A stretch of 64,000 bases of DNA, from assembly GCA_021792615.1 (NCBI GenBank), contig JAJYUJ010000003.1, forward strand, positions 38,700-102,699, read 5' to 3'. Made by a program: the position numbers and the translations under genes. The notes beneath the pieces were generated by a model that was given only the letters and a program-made list of their open reading frames with translations, was not told the DNA's origin and did not search any database. Below, piece by piece: positions 10,651 through 63,755 of this stretch. The number at the start of each line of letters is the position of its first letter. The first letter of the stretch is position 1. This DNA is from a bacterium. GTDB taxonomy: Bacteria; JAMCPX01.

Positions 10651-11211
10651 ATGACGGATATATTAAAAATAAAAACTCCTTTGACGGACGAGGTTGTTTC
10701 GAAGCTGAAAAGCGGCGATAGTGTGTTGATAACGGGTGTTATGTATACGGGCAGGGATGCTGCGCATAAAAGGATGATTGATGCACTGAACAAAGGTGAA
10801 AAATTACCCTTTGATATACAGGGACAGATTATTTATTATGTCGGACCTTCACCCGCAAAGCCCGGCAAGCCTATTGGTTCGGCAGGTCCTACGACCAGCT
10901 ACAGGATGGATGCCTATGCTCCAACACTGATAAAGCTCGGATTGAAAGGCATGATCGGCAAGGGCTGGAGGGCGAAAGATGTTATCGATGCCTGTATAAA
11001 ATACAAGGCAATTTACTTTGGAGCGACCGGCGGCGCAGGTGCGCTCATAGCAAGAGCGATAAAAAAAGCCGATATTATTGCTTATGACGATCTCGGTCCT
11101 GAGGCTGTCCGGAGGATTGAGGTCGTAGATTTCCCTGCAATAGTCATTAACGACGCCTTTGGTAACGACCTTTATGTGAAAGGCGTAGAACAATACAAAC
11201 AAACGATATGA
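10651..11211 (+). CDS. fumB: Class I fumarate hydratase, beta subunit
   Basis: A 186-residue small subunit of class I fumarase. It carries the family motifs GVMYTGRDAAHKRM, the substrate-binding strand GPTTSYRMDAYAP and the GATGGAGALIARAIKKA segment. It pairs with the alpha subunit encoded seven bases upstream to form the active site. The symbol used here marks the beta subunit and not the E. coli FumB isoenzyme. The stop codon is followed at once by an array of 7-bp repeats in the sdhC leader. Confidence 0.92.
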   Translation: MTDILKIKTPLTDEVVSKLKSGDSVLITGVMYTGRDAAHKRMIDALNKGEKLPFDIQGQIIYYVGPSPAKPGKPIGSAGPTTSYRMDAYAPTLIKLGLKGMIGKGWRAKDVIDACIKYKAIYFGATGGAGALIARAIKKADIIAYDDLGPEAVRRIEVVDFPAIVINDAFGNDLYVKGVEQYKQTI

Positions 11212-11266
11212 AGAAATTCAAGATTCAAAATTCAAGATTCAAGTTCAAAATAAAAGATTAAGAAAC
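11212..11266. repeat. Period-7 repeat array (CAAGATT/CAAAATT units)
   Basis: Starting on the last base of the fumarase beta stop, seven-base units run AGAAATT, CAAGATT, CAAAATT, CAAGATT, then decay (CAAGTTC, AAAATAA, AAGATTA). The array occupies most of the 83-base fumB-sdhC spacer. It resembles the arrays at 57012-57110 and those bordering the cassette at 59699-60185, and in style the heptameric STRR repeats of cyanobacteria. Confidence 0.75.
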
Positions 11267-56377: not shown

Positions 56378-57022
56378 ATGCTGAAGAGAGTTGTTTTGAT
56401 ATTATTATTTTTAGGTTTTATAAATGTGTCTGCCCGGGCATCAGACAATGTTCATTATGAGCTTACGCTTGGAGCGGGTGCAGTTCATTTTACAAAAGAC
56501 CCCGTGCTTCAGTCATTTTATAAGAACAACTATGTGCCGATGTATCAGCTCAATGCAGGCGTGTTGTTTTATCATTTTATCGGTCTTGACGGCACTCTTG
56601 GGTTTGTCTATGGCAAACACACTCTCTATGCGCAGCCCGGTGTCGGACAGCAGTATACCCTTATGGTTTACCCTGCACGGCTGGATGCTGTTCTCCAGTT
56701 ACGCTTGCGGGACGATCAGGTTATTTATCCCTATATCGGAGCCGGTGGAGTTGCAACGGGTTTTTATCAAATAGCGTCCGGAGGCGGCAAAATAGTCAGC
56801 GGATATAAATATGGATATAACTGGATAGGCGGTATTCATATTTTGCTCGATCCAATCGATATGAGGCATGTCGGCAACCTGCGTACGGAATACGGTATCG
56901 ATCATGTGTATATTGACATAAGGATCGGTCAGGACATGGTAAACGATTTTCATAAAAGCAGCAGTACGGGATTTGATTTTTCCACCCAGTACATCATCGG
57001 AGCTTTCGGCTTCGAATTTTGA
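56378..57022 (+). CDS. Outer-membrane beta-barrel protein of unknown function
   Basis: A 214-residue exported protein. The signal peptide is cleaved near ARA|SD (residue 21). The rest alternates polar and hydrophobic residues with aromatic girdles (YELTLGAGAVHF; IGLDGTLGFVYG; VIYPYIGAGGVATGFY) and ends GAFGFEF with a terminal Phe, the signal recognised by the Bam complex. It resembles eight-strand OmpW/OmpA-like barrels, but I cannot name the family. AAGGAG precedes the ATG. The last codons run into a period-7 repeat array. Confidence 0.7.
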   Translation: MLKRVVLILLFLGFINVSARASDNVHYELTLGAGAVHFTKDPVLQSFYKNNYVPMYQLNAGVLFYHFIGLDGTLGFVYGKHTLYAQPGVGQQYTLMVYPARLDAVLQLRLRDDQVIYPYIGAGGVATGFYQIASGGGKIVSGYKYGYNWIGGIHILLDPIDMRHVGNLRTEYGIDHVYIDIRIGQDMVNDFHKSSSTGFDFSTQYIIGAFGFEF

Positions 57023-57110
57023 ATCATGAGTTTTTAATCTTTAATCTTGATTCTTTGATTCCCCATCTTAATTTTATTTTGAATCTTGAGTTTTTAATTT
57101 TCAATTTCTT
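57012..57110. repeat. Period-7 arrays between the barrel gene and truA
   Basis: From 57012 seven-base units run TCGAATT, TTGAATC, ATGAGTT, TTTAATC, TTTAATC, TTGATTC, TTTGATT. A second similar run begins TTTTGAATC at 57077, 60 bases after the first such word at 57017. The array starts inside the last codons of the barrel gene and ends four bases before the truA ATG. Confidence 0.75.
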
Positions 57111-57113
57111 AAA

Positions 57114-57893
57114 ATGATGCGCAACATAAAACTTATCGTCGAGTACGACGGCACAAACTACAAGGGCTGGCAGGATCAACAATCCGCTCATCATTCAGAG
57201 CGGAAGGGCAAAAGGCCTGAAGCACAGAATACCCTCTTGACCATACAGGGGATACTGAGAGAAGCGATTGGCAGGATAACACATGAAGACATAAAGCTCA
57301 CCGGAGCGGGGCGGACGGATTCCGGGGTGCATGCGCAGGGGCAGGTGGCGAATTTTTATACCGTATCGGATTTTACGATCGAAAGGTTTCCGTTAGCCAT
57401 CAATGCATATTTGCCCTATGACATTGCCGTAAAATGTGCGGAAGAAGTGCCTTTGGAATTCAATGCAAGAAACGATGCAAAAGCCAGAGAATACCTGTAT
57501 GTAATCAATAATCACAAATTCAGGACAGCACTGAAAAGGCTATACAGCTTTCATGTACCTCCGAAACTGGATATTCAGGCCATGCAGCAGGCTGCCGGGT
57601 ACTTGATCGGAGAGCATGATTTTACCGGATTTGCGTTCGGCAACAAAGGAAAAAGGACCAGGAACATCATGAAGCTTGAGATAAAGAAAAAGGATGACTT
57701 TTTGTATATAACTGTTAAAGCAAATAGCTTCCTCATGCACATGGTACGGTATATCGTCGCAGCATTGCTTGAGGCAGGAAAAAGGAAAATGAAACCAGAA
57801 GACATAAAACTTTATCTTGAGCCGGCACTGAGGAAATGGACGCATTCCCGTGCACCGGCGCGGGGATTGTTTTTAATGAAGGTAGAGTATTGA
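57114..57893 (+). CDS. truA: tRNA pseudouridine(38-40) synthase TruA, with a small insertion
   Basis: A 259-residue enzyme modifying positions 38-40 of tRNA anticodon arms. It opens [17 protein letters not shown], the catalytic Asp69 is in [14 protein letters not shown], and [19 protein letters not shown] is the conserved C-terminal motif. Between KGWQDQQ and the TIQGIL strand there are about 15 residues more than usual ([15 protein letters not shown]), containing a DNA hairpin TCCGCTC/GAGCGGA at 57183-57204. Start at 57114 or the adjacent 57117 ATG; no clear SD. Its stop overlaps the lepA ATG. Confidence 0.94.
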
Positions 57894-59689
57894 TGGACAC
57901 AAAGCACATAAGAAATTTTTCTATAATTGCCCATATCGATCATGGGAAGTCAACACTCGCGGACAGGATCCTCGAGCGAACGGGCGTGTTGACGATTCGG
58001 GAGAAAAAAGACCAGTTCCTCGATCAGATGGACCTGGAACGGGAACGGGGCATTACCATAAAAGCCTCGCCGGTGAGGATTGATTATCATGCAAAGTCCG
58101 GTGAGGACTTTATCTTTAATCTTATCGATACACCGGGGCACGTTGACTTTTCTTATGAGGTCTCGCGGAGCCTTGCTGCATGCGAAGGTGCGCTGCTGGT
58201 CGTCGATGCAACACAGGGTGTGGAAGCGCAGACCCTTGCAAACGCATACCTTGCCATAGACAACAACCTCGAGCTTATACCGGTAATCAACAAGATCGAT
58301 CTCCCCGGTGCTGAACCGGAAAGGGTGAGAAAGGAAATAGAAGATATCATCGGCATTGATGCTTCAGGTGCTATACTTGCAAGTGCCAAAGAGGGCATAG
58401 GCATAGACGAGATACTCGAGGCTGTTGTGACAAGGGTACCGCATCCAAAGGGCGACCCGGCAAAACCTCTGAGCGCTTTGCTGTTCGATAGCTGGTACGA
58501 CAGCTACCAGGGGGTTATCATGGTGGTGCGTCTGTTTGACGGGTCTGTCCGGATTGGTGACAGAATTAAAATGCTTTCAACGGGACGCAGCTATGAGGTG
58601 ACGAACCTTGGGATAGTCGCACCGCTGGTGAGAGAGGTAACAGGGCTGTCGGCAGGGGAGGTCGGCGTTATTATAGCAGGAATAAAAGACCTACACGAAA
58701 CAATGATTGGTGATACCATAACACTCGAGAATAATCCCGCGACAACACCGCTCCCCGGATTCAAGCATATTAAGCCGCTGGTCTTTGCGGGTCTGTACCC
58801 GGTCGAGAACAATCAATACGAGCCGCTCAAGGCTGCCATCGAAAAGCTTATCCTCAACGATTCCTCATTCACGTACGAGCCTGAAACATCGACAGCGCTC
58901 GGTTTCGGGTTCAGATGCGGATTCCTCGGGTTGCTGCACAAAGAAATTATTCAGGAAAGGCTTGAAAGGGAATACGAGCTCGAACTTATTTCAACTGCAC
59001 CGACGGTTGCATATCATATTTATCTGCAGGACGGAGAAATGGTTTCCGTAGATAACCCGGCAAACTTTCCGGAGGACAGGTCTGTTCAAAAGATAGAGGA
59101 GCCCTATGTGGTCGTGACGATCCATATACCGTCGGAATTCGTCGGCGCGGTATTGAAGGTTTGCGAGGACAAAAGGGGCATCCAGCGGGAGATGAAATAT
59201 CTCACCCAGAACAAGGTCATGATCGTTTATGAACTGCCGCTGTCGGAAATGATCAGCGATTTTTACGATAAGTTGAAATCGATCTCCCGGGGTTATGCCT
59301 CTATGGAGTACGAATTCCTTGATTATAAGACATCGGATCTTATAAAGCTGAATATACTCATCAACGGAGACCCGGTGGATGCACTGTCTCTGATTGTCCA
59401 TAAGGACAACTCTTATTATCGGGGGAGGGCGCTTACCGAAAAGCTGAGGAAGGTCATTCCCCGGCAGCTTTTTGAGGTGAATATACAGGCCGCAATCGGT
59501 TCCAGGGTCATTGCCAAGGAAAGCGTCAAAGCGATGAGAAAGGATGTTCTGGCAAAGTGTTACGGAGGTGACATCACCAGAAAGAGGAAACTGCTTGAGA
59601 AACAGAAAGAAGGCAAGAAGCGGATGAAGCAGGTCGGTGTCATCAATATCCCGCAGGAGGCCTTCCTGTCCGTATTGAAGTCGGAGTGA
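57893..59689 (+). CDS. lepA: Elongation factor 4 (LepA)
   Basis: A 598-residue translational GTPase. G1 is [14 protein letters not shown]2 lies around RGITIKA, G3 is DTPGHVDF, G4 is NKIDLPGA, and the C-terminal LepA-specific domain ends [20 protein letters not shown]. It acts on the ribosome to back-translocate or aid assembly. The ATG at 57893 overlaps the truA stop (TGATG); an upstream in-frame ATG at 57836 lies in truA and adds non-homologous residues. It is normally followed by lepB; here a cassette lies between. Confidence 0.97.
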
Positions 59690-59698
59690 GCAGTGGAA

Positions 59699-60185
59699 AA
59701 ATTCTAAATTCTAAGTCCTAAATTCTAAATAAAATAAAATGACTGACATTCAAAATAAAAAACAATATAATTTAGAGGAGAGAACATTTGATTTTACAAA
59801 ACGAGTTATTGAATTTGTAAACAAATTACAAAAGACATTGCCAAATATTGAGATTGCAAAACAATTAATAAGATCTGCTGGTTCAGTTGGAGCAAACTAT
59901 ATTGAAGCAAATGAGTCCCTGAGCAAAAAAGATTTTATTATGAGGATAAAGATTTCTCGTAAAGAGGCAAAAGAAAGTCGTTATTGGTTAAAACTTATCA
60001 ACTGTTATAATAAAGAAGCAGAAAAAGAACAGCAAGATCTTGTGCAAGAAGCTTATGAACTCAAGAAAATCTTTGGAGCAATATTAATAAAAACGAATTC
60101 TAAGCTCGAAACACAAAATCCTAAACAACTTTGAATATTATGATATTAAATTTGTTTAGGATTTAGATATTAGTATTTCGGATTT
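59699..60185. mobile_element. Putative cassette: four-helix-bundle gene between inverted 7-bp repeat arrays
   Basis: The left end is AAATTCT, AAATTCT, AAGTCCT, AAATTCT, AAATAAA (59699-59733). The right end is the complement type, AGGATTT, AGATATT, AGTATTT, CGGATTT (60158-60185). The 3' end of the gene itself also has units (GAATTCT, AAGCTCG, AAACACA, AAATCCT; 60095-60122), and AAATCCTAAACAA at 60116-60128 pairs perfectly with 60152-60164 as a 13-bp hairpin. The 487-bp unit separates lepA from lepB, which normally adjoin. That it moves is inferred. Confidence 0.55.
59739..60134 (+). CDS. Four-helix-bundle protein (23S rRNA intervening-sequence protein family)
   Basis: A 131-residue helical protein with the family marks IAKQLIRSAGSVGANYIEANES and KKDFIMRIKISRKEAKES followed by RYWLKL. 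Relatives are encoded inside 23S rRNA intervening sequences (S23/IVP), and another relative (Avd) works in diversity-generating retroelements. This free-standing copy has neither context; instead it is enclosed by 7-bp repeats. Its last dozen residues (NSKLETQNPKQL) are encoded by that repeat. Base composition is AT-rich compared with lepA and lepB. No good SD is visible before the ATG. Confidence 0.88.
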   Translation: MTDIQNKKQYNLEERTFDFTKRVIEFVNKLQKTLPNIEIAKQLIRSAGSVGANYIEANESLSKKDFIMRIKISRKEAKESRYWLKLINCYNKEAEKEQQDLVQEAYELKKIFGAILIKTNSKLETQNPKQL

Positions 60186-60205: not shown

Positions 60206-60826
60206 ATGGTAAAAGAAAAAAAGAAAAAAAGTGTTATTAGGGAGTATGTCGAGGCATTTACAACCGCGATTATACTTGCCCTTATAATCCGGGCGTTTAT
60301 TATCCAGGCATTTAAAATCCCATCAGGATCCATGGAACCTACCTTATTGGTCGGGGACCATATTCTGGTAACCAAATTTATTTACGGTACGCACATTCCG
60401 TTTACGAATGATGTCGTACTGCCGTTCCGATCTCCGAAAAGACGGGATGTCGTCGTGTTCGAATACCCGAAGGATGAGAGTATAGATTTTATCAAACGGG
60501 TCATCGGACTGCCCGGGGACAAGGTACAGATTATCAATAAGCAGGTTTTCATAAACGGCAAGGCACTCAAGGAACCGTATGCATATCATGGGGATCCGGA
60601 GATATTGCCGGCTTCTGAGTCACCGAGGGACAATTTCGGACCGATTGTCGTTCCCAAAGGTGAATACTTTATGATGGGTGATAACAGGGATTTTTCCAAC
60701 GACTCGAGGTTCTGGGGGTTTGTTAAACGGGACTTGATTCTCGGAGAGGCCGAGATTATTTATTTCTCATGGAACACCAAGACATACCATATTCGGTGGA
60801 ACAGGTTCGGGATGATCATACATTGA
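60206..60826 (+). CDS. lepB: Signal peptidase I
   Basis: A 206-residue membrane-bound protease that cleaves signal peptides. After the basic start KEKKKKS comes one transmembrane helix (AIILALIIRAFIIQAF), then the catalytic Ser42 in IPSGSMEPTLL and the general-base Lys97 in DFIKRVIGLPGD; GDNRDFSNDSRFWGFV is box E. GAGGAG precedes ATG 60206; the upstream TTG at 60185 is inside the repeat cassette and unlikely. Confidence 0.95.
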   Translation: MVKEKKKKSVIREYVEAFTTAIILALIIRAFIIQAFKIPSGSMEPTLLVGDHILVTKFIYGTHIPFTNDVVLPFRSPKRRDVVVFEYPKDESIDFIKRVIGLPGDKVQIINKQVFINGKALKEPYAYHGDPEILPASESPRDNFGPIVVPKGEYFMMGDNRDFSNDSRFWGFVKRDLILGEAEIIYFSWNTKTYHIRWNRFGMIIH

Positions 60827-62580: not shown

Positions 62581-63408
62581 TCATAAAAAGAGAGCAGAAT
62601 TTTCATTGTTTTTGCCCATGGCTGCAAGTTGTTCAAACTCCTCAGGTGGTACATTCCCAAGTGCTGAATGCAGCCGCTTCTTGTTATACACTTCCTCTAT
62701 AAAATAGGGAAGCCTTTCTATGACATCTTCATAAATCTCATAGTCCCATAAATACACCTCCTCATATTTCAGCGTCTTCATAAACGATTCCATATACGCA
62801 TTGTCATAAGGGTTGCCCTTTGCAGACATGCTTACCTCAAATCCTGCATCCATAAGCTTGTTCACATACTCATTGCTTGCATACTGCACTCCCCTGTCTG
62901 AATGATGGATACAGCCTTTCGCAGGCTTGCGTGTTTGAATTGCTGCTTCCAATGCATCAAGACAGAGCTGATTATCAAGCCGCCGTGATAATGCCCAGCC
63001 TATTGCCTTGCGGGAATACAAGTCTAATATCGCTGCAAGGTATACAAAACCTCTCTGGATATGTATGTAGGTTATGTCCGCTGCCCACACTTCATTTATC
63101 CGATTGACTTCCTTGTCCTTGAGGAGATTCGGATAGATCCTATACCCGTGCCTTGAGTTTGTTGTATGGACGCTGAATTTTTTCAATGTTATAGGGTATA
63201 ATCCATATTCTCCCTGTACACGCCGAATGCGCTTGCCATTGAGAGTTATCCCTTCCCGTCTTAACTGCTTGTTTATTCGCCTATATCCATACCCAGGAAA
63301 TTCACCCTGTATCCGTTCTATCATCATCTTGAGTTCCTTGTCGGTTCTGTCTGCTTCATCTGTTGTTTTTGGTTTATAATAATACGTGCTCTTGGATAGA
63401 CCGGTCAT
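62581..63408 (-). CDS. IS3-family transposase OrfB (DDE integrase)
   Basis: The ATG-initiated frame has 275 residues. The HTH_21-like segment FPGYGYRRINKQLRREGI precedes the rve integrase core with catalytic Asp in WAADITYIHI, Asp in HHSDRGVQYAS and Glu in AYMESFMKTLK. The same frame stays open upstream of the ATG and encodes family-like residues (INNHIKEFGTVSEGCK), so the functional protein is probably an OrfAB fusion made by -1 frameshifting at the A8 run (63494-63501). The free ATG also overlaps the orfA stop (ATGA). Confidence 0.92.
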   Translation of the reverse strand: MTGLSKSTYYYKPKTTDEADRTDKELKMMIERIQGEFPGYGYRRINKQLRREGITLNGKRIRRVQGEYGLYPITLKKFSVHTTNSRHGYRIYPNLLKDKEVNRINEVWAADITYIHIQRGFVYLAAILDLYSRKAIGWALSRRLDNQLCLDALEAAIQTRKPAKGCIHHSDRGVQYASNEYVNKLMDAGFEVSMSAKGNPYDNAYMESFMKTLKYEEVYLWDYEIYEDVIERLPYFIEEVYNKKRLHSALGNVPPEEFEQLAAMGKNNENSALFL

Positions 63409-63755
63409 TTTGCACCCTTCTGATACTGTTCCAAATTCTTTGATGTGATTATTGATGTAGCTGCGATTTGACGTGGGGGCTTTAGACTTTGTATTTTTTT
63501 TAAAACCTCGATCTGCATATACAGCTCACCCAGCTTCTCTTTCAATTCCCGGTTCTCTTTCTCAAGCATCTTCTCTCTGCCTGTAGGTCCTTTGGTAAGA
63601 CTGCCGTCCCGGTATTTCTTTAGCCATTTCGATATCACGCTTGACGCTATACCATGCATACGGCTTGCATCCGCAGATGTGATTATTCCGGATTCTATCT
63701 CCTGCATTAGCTGCTGTTTAAACCCTATGTCGTAACTTTTATACTTCTTGATCAT
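63405..63755 (-). CDS. IS3-family OrfA (helix-turn-helix)
   Basis: A 116-residue protein with an N-terminal HTH (LMQEIESGIITSADASRMHG, then SSVISKWLKKYRDG) and a leucine-zipper-like coil (EKENRELKEKLGELYMQIEVL). It binds the IS ends and pairs with OrfB. The last 30 residues, after the run of A bases, are probably not conserved and mark the frameshift region. GGAGAAGAC precedes the ATG at 63755. Confidence 0.9.
   Translation of the reverse strand: MIKKYKSYDIGFKQQLMQEIESGIITSADASRMHGIASSVISKWLKKYRDGSLTKGPTGREKMLEKENRELKEKLGELYMQIEVLKKIQSLKPPRQIAATSIITSKNLEQYQKGAK

Follow-up and report, generated by a model that had tools for sequence, protein, structure and literature searches.

A heptamer-bounded cassette with the anatomy of 23S rRNA intervening sequences in the spacer between lepA and lepB

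To our knowledge, S23p proteins have for decades been an oddity of fragmented rRNA, and we know of no function for them. The intervening sequence (IVS) in the rRNA of Coxiella burnetii lies in helix 45 and has tandem heptamers (GACAGAT) at its start, and RNase III cuts it at the first repeat; the same study (Warrier et al., 2016, PMC4990558) also cites the Xanthomonas protein as forming a homopentameric ring. Intergenic 7-bp direct repeats have been described in Cyanobacteria and Bacteroidetes in a paper that mentions neither S23 nor four-helix proteins (PMC4679880). In a literature search that covered few subscription papers, no paper was found tying such repeats to free-standing copies. The new point reported here is the generality of the class: a recurrent, movable cassette with the anatomy of an rRNA IVS is found in an mRNA spacer.

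The window analyzed is a 64,000-nucleotide stretch of a bacterial contig (JAJYUJ010000003.1, assembly GCA_021792615.1). In sense orientation within its lepA-lepB spacer, and not inside any rRNA gene, lies a 487-bp cassette (59699-60185) consisting of one small gene and five inverted 7-bp repeats per side (Table 1). A first-pass annotation, made from the letters and their open reading frames, had pointed to AAATTCT units of period 7 at the left and complementary units at the right. Both arrays hold five heptamers and agree in register at 27 of 35 positions, a value equalled by none of 20,000 shuffles (shuffle maximum 24); the period-7 self-match is 21/28 in the left array (0 of 20,000 shuffles) and 16/28 in the right array (p 0.012). 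Left-type units had also been noted inside the 3' end of the gene, where they are indeed present, and according to the protein alignment this extra array gives the protein a C-terminal tail unlike that of its relatives; the array also creates the perfect 13-bp hairpin that the annotation had stressed. The hairpin is real, although the emphasis placed on it does not hold: it is peculiar to the window copy, and we rejected a hairpin across the stop codon as a family trait, since a perfect one of at least 9 bp occurs in 1 of 79 relatives and shuffles give 2. The general feature of the family is the pairing of the outer ends with each other. The window transcript can fold end to end, with a fold that improves only slightly on shuffles (z -1.7). 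About 1.8 kb downstream of lepB, two ORFs on the minus strand (62581-63755) resemble, by inspection, an IS3-type transposase pair.

Table 1. Features of the cassette and its host genes, in window coordinates.
Feature	Position	Strand	Sequence or basis
lepA (PF06421), upstream host gene	57896..59689	+	Pfam match
Left terminal array, five heptamers	59699..59733	+	AAATTCT AAATTCT AAGTCCT AAATTCT AAATAAA
Four-helix-bundle gene (S23p/IVP, PF05635/TIGR02436), 131 aa	59739..60134	+	Family profiles, AlphaFold2, Foldseek
Extra left-type array within the 3' coding end (AATTCTAAGCTCGAAACACAAAATCCTAAACAA)	60096..60128	+	Repeat comparison, protein alignment
Perfect 13-bp hairpin spanning the stop codon	60116..60164	.	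Arms 60116-60128 and 60152-60164; peculiar to the window copy
Right terminal array, five heptamers, inverted relative to the left	60151..60185	-	Reverse complement AAATCCG AAATACT AATATCT AAATCCT AAACAAA
lepB, signal peptidase I (PF10502), downstream host gene	60206..60826	+	Pfam match

The window ORF matches PF05635 (23S_rRNA_IVP) with 61 bits (E 1e-16, cut-off 33.8) and TIGR02436 with 77 bits, and it matches only profiles of this PF05635/TIGR02436 type, with no transposase in the cassette. The AlphaFold2 monomer has four helices (pLDDT 92), and its best Foldseek matches are 2rld (E 1.4e-5, target TM 0.81), 2gsc (0.80) and 4dwl, the first two representing the BT_0352/XCC0516 four-helix fold. 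The solved relative 2rld has five chains, and by analogy the window protein probably forms a pentameric ring. The IVP gene is under purifying selection, with a dN/dS of 0.07-0.15. With regard to a role in defence, PADLOC gave no significant match for the IVP gene; viral contigs yielded no relative when scanned with the single window protein and seven distant relatives when scanned with an alignment.

The comparison of the lepA-lepB junction that had been proposed covered nine genomes of the window genome's family, with lepB found in eight of them, the window's own included. The IVP gene lies beside lepB only in the window's own genome, and the junctions of the seven relatives lack it. One of these, in a genome from another genus (G006), retains a remnant of the right-end array without the gene, with a local score of 26 against the window, compared with a maximum of 17 in 5,000 shuffles and 6-8 in the six other relatives. 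Two further spacers are short and empty (by reading), three, by inspection, contain an ORF resembling RAYT, the REP transposase, or what is left of one, and that of G004 contains a hairpin repeat. Conserved residence of the gene between lepA and lepB without the repeats was not found at any of the seven relatives' junctions. The absence of the gene in the relatives, together with the right-end remnant, indicates gain of the element here, or gain followed by loss, and the RAYT-like ORFs in sister spacers suggest that unrelated small elements have landed in this spacer repeatedly.

To assess how general the arrays are, we surveyed free-standing family members, as the annotation had proposed, in two sets: a discovery set of 80 loci close to the window protein from roughly twenty phyla, and a validation set of 100 further PF05635 loci (99 in the period test) of other subfamilies, from 26 genomes with 2 to 17 copies per genome. 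In both sets, period 7 (with its double) is the one period of those from 4 to 16 that stands out next to the gene when distant flanks and shuffles serve as controls, with a mean signal of 0.637 near the gene versus 0.386-0.405 far from it in the discovery set and 0.613 versus 0.397 in the validation set; period 8 or 9 occurs in a minority of arrays. The periodicity threshold is passed by 59% of IVP-adjacent spacers and 16% of other spacers, and several of the periodic non-IVP spacers hold inverted pairs of these units with no gene. Unit numbers do no more than cluster around five, with medians of 4.6-5.4 for left and right ends and with tails, and in the window's subfamily the AA-chain mode is five per end. 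Left ends match the reverse complement of their cognate right ends with a mean of 20.6 in the discovery set, versus 14.3 in 5,000 permutations (z 14.6), and among end pairs of the validation set 64% of the cognate ones reach a score of at least 15, versus 2.3% of the non-cognate ones. Moreover, GC-corrected array composition tracks protein distance (0 of 2,000 permutations, also without Bacteroidota), more weakly in the validation set (4 of 2,000 permutations), indicating that gene and ends travel together. No rRNA was found near the survey loci by conserved 23S words. That the heptamers serve to place stop codons in three frames was considered and rejected, with only 33 of 80 left ends having them. 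One locus in the window's genus (L016) has an IVP gene with much amplified period-9 arrays (TTTAAACGG) on both sides, and at two loci on cyanobacterial plasmids (L021 and L022) the gap between cas2 and cas1 holds an antisense IVP gene whose arrays are of the AAAAAGT type.

The first-pass annotation had described homologues as stem-bounded insertions in 23S rRNA, and an unannotated plasmid match in Azospirillum lipoferum 4B, which falls in a 23S rRNA gene, bears this out. Relative to the element-free 23S rRNA of Azospirillum B510 and A. ramasamyi, a 469-bp insert stands in place of the tip of helix 45, the helix being identified by its sequence context. The insert starts with TCAGAGG ACGGATG ACAGAGG ACGGAGG ACAGAAA and closes with the inverse, its ends agreeing in register at 30 of 35 positions with a duplex stem of -74 kcal/mol; its ORF scores 115 bits against PF05635, and, taken whole, the insert has a much more stable fold than shuffles (z -8.6). 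No target-site duplication was seen at this insertion. Taken together with the survey, this rRNA copy indicates that the annotation was largely right to regard the rRNA IVS as one form of a broader element, composed of the protein and foldable ends, which in the window occupies an mRNA spacer.

Gain and loss are also seen at other junctions. In the folE-cysS spacer of Flavobacterium, the cassette is present in 4 of the 29 junctions read, in two different versions; relatives with 99% identical FolE have no cassette, and others keep arrays only. Two Flavobacterium species (L206 and L215) with flanks that are about 90% identical have different IVP elements and arrays at this junction, a difference which, on sequence comparison, may be due to replacement or to repeated insertion. 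Most of the element-free folE-cysS spacers (L283, L284, L286 and others) contain a conserved hairpin sequence, presumably resembling the Flavo-1 RNA motif, which is missing where the IVP element sits. One Wolfebacteria genome has two copies that are 82% alike, with homology from array to array and nothing beyond; the copies L142 and L143 of genome G014 were not counted, as they show no difference anywhere in the 909 bp compared, which take in the flanks, and may be an assembly duplicate. On the protein tree, which rests on a short alignment and has many unresolved forks, phylum labels are mixed outside Bacteroidota. The gene has persisted through many genera at two junctions in Flavobacteriaceae, as an ordinary gene would, indicating that the cassette can also settle.

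Heptamer arrays without the gene are common, with about 60 overlapping matches in the window genome and many in its genus, and some sister genomes have arrays with no detected IVP gene; the arrays may therefore have a life of their own. Solo arrays are also abundant in cyanobacterial plasmids. In the Dolichospermum plasmid pAfl69 (L312, 27309-33647), every exact AATTACG array in a stretch of 50 kb is found no more than about 5 kb from the IVP gene, and an annotated DNA methyltransferase gene contains three of these arrays. Such a decay of same-unit solo arrays with distance was striking in one plasmid, and chromosomal loci had too few arrays. Within the window, arrays of TTTAATC and TTCAAGA types without an IVP gene lie at 57014-57114, just upstream of truA, and at 11208-11263.

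Considering what is observed of the anatomy, its recurrence over about twenty phyla, the joint inheritance of protein and ends, the gain and loss at sites and the identity of the anatomy with that of rRNA IVSs, we find it likely that the window feature is a free-standing selfish cassette of the same kind as the 23S rRNA IVSs, with arrays that would pair in the transcript. The two paired arrays would form a stem that RNase III could cut, as in the Coxiella rRNA IVS, and the cassette would then leave the mRNA without ligation. The insertion would be tolerated because separate lepA and lepB messages would still work, like fragmented 23S rRNA. A pentameric ring and ends of about five heptamers point to one heptamer for each subunit; with less confidence, we propose that the ring may bind the five heptamers of one end in this way, and that the heptamer-bound protein may mark or move its own element.

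The cassette could instead be mobile at the DNA level, with arrays that serve as terminal inverted repeats for a transposase acting in trans and an RNA stem that is incidental, a reading that we regard as possible but rather doubtful. It would account for the gene-less inverted array pairs in other spacers, which resemble MITEs, and it agrees with stem mismatches that have no excess of G-U over A-C (190 versus 242), so that selection for RNA pairing on the + strand is not visible. The ends also evolve in concert: in homologous cassettes of Nostoc-type plasmids, with array lengths of 26/26, 33/33, 33/33 and 34/33 nt and AATTCGC or AATTACG units at both ends, unit sequence and number change jointly at the two ends, and end complementarity could also come from DNA-level copying of one end onto the other. 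Orientation cuts both ways, as some copies in operons are antisense (cas2-cas1, kdp genes), but at 146 codirectional junctions the cassette is sense in 141 and antisense in 5, compared with 79 and 14 for ordinary small genes (n=93; p 0.002), and this strong sense bias speaks against the DNA-level reading. The lack of a visible target-site duplication at the rRNA site likewise weighs against it, as does the free variation of unit sequence and number among elements, which is unlike the fixed repeats of IS elements.

TRAP binds its own repeats, and by analogy an RNA-binding pentamer on the leader heptamers might regulate itself, controlling its own translation or that of lepB, with mobility secondary. 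Such a role would suit arrays near the start codon (median of 6-25 nt from the inner stem end to the ATG), the strong purifying selection and the pentameric state of solved relatives (PMC4990558; 2rld), but we judge it unlikely since it leaves unexplained both the second, inverted array downstream and the identical layout inside rRNA. That an ordinary resident gene merely sits beside host-specific slippage products of the short-tandem-repeat kind is highly improbable despite the abundance of solo arrays in the window genome, its genus and cyanobacterial plasmids and the retention at two Flavobacteriaceae junctions, because the arrays make up inverted, cognate pairs, vary with protein clade across phyla, reach the exact ends of duplicated copies and form the stem of the rRNA insertion.

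Beyond the preferred reading of the window feature as a free-standing selfish cassette cut from its transcript, a wider proposal is possible, if somewhat less likely than not: IVP cassettes may be a large, unrecognised class of autonomous mobile elements with a ring that reads five heptamers per end, rRNA IVSs would be the few landings in rRNA, and many short heptamer repeats would be gene-less derivatives or scars. Should the rRNA copies be one special case of a mobile cassette found in housekeeping-operon spacers, what the protein does, where rRNA IVSs come from and what gives rise to many 7-bp arrays would merge into a single testable question, namely whether the ring binds the heptamers and whether the transcript is cut at them.

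Among known systems, Avd (the DGR accessory protein; 4dwl, 8ube; Pfam bAvd PF22296), which the annotation had brought up, is a relative at the level of the fold and no closer. The four-helix fold is shared (target TM about 0.75). Among IVP proteins, the canonical ones hit the Avd PHROG and also, below cut-off, bAvd; for the window protein, neither PHROGs nor Pfam gives an Avd match. A linked reverse transcriptase is absent, with none on the window contig and the sole RVT_1 match in the genome on another contig. REP/RAYT systems and MITEs share with the cassette the form of small repeat-bounded spacer sequences with gene-less derivatives; unlike REP/RAYT, the window cassette has no transposase, and its ends are heptamer arrays rather than REP hairpins. 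The short tandemly repeated heptamers of cyanobacteria and the TAACTGA repeats (PMC4679880) differ from the window arrays, which are inverted around one gene. The 23S rRNA IVSs with an S23p ORF, in Coxiella and Azospirillum, have in common with the window a PF05635 gene of about 120-135 aa, a total length of 430-490 bp, inverted stem-forming ends and tandem heptamers beside the ORF. The host in the window is an mRNA spacer rather than rRNA, and the units are AT-rich AAATTCT types rather than GACAGA types; the window cassette is thus an element of this kind housed in a different RNA, and not itself an rRNA IVS.
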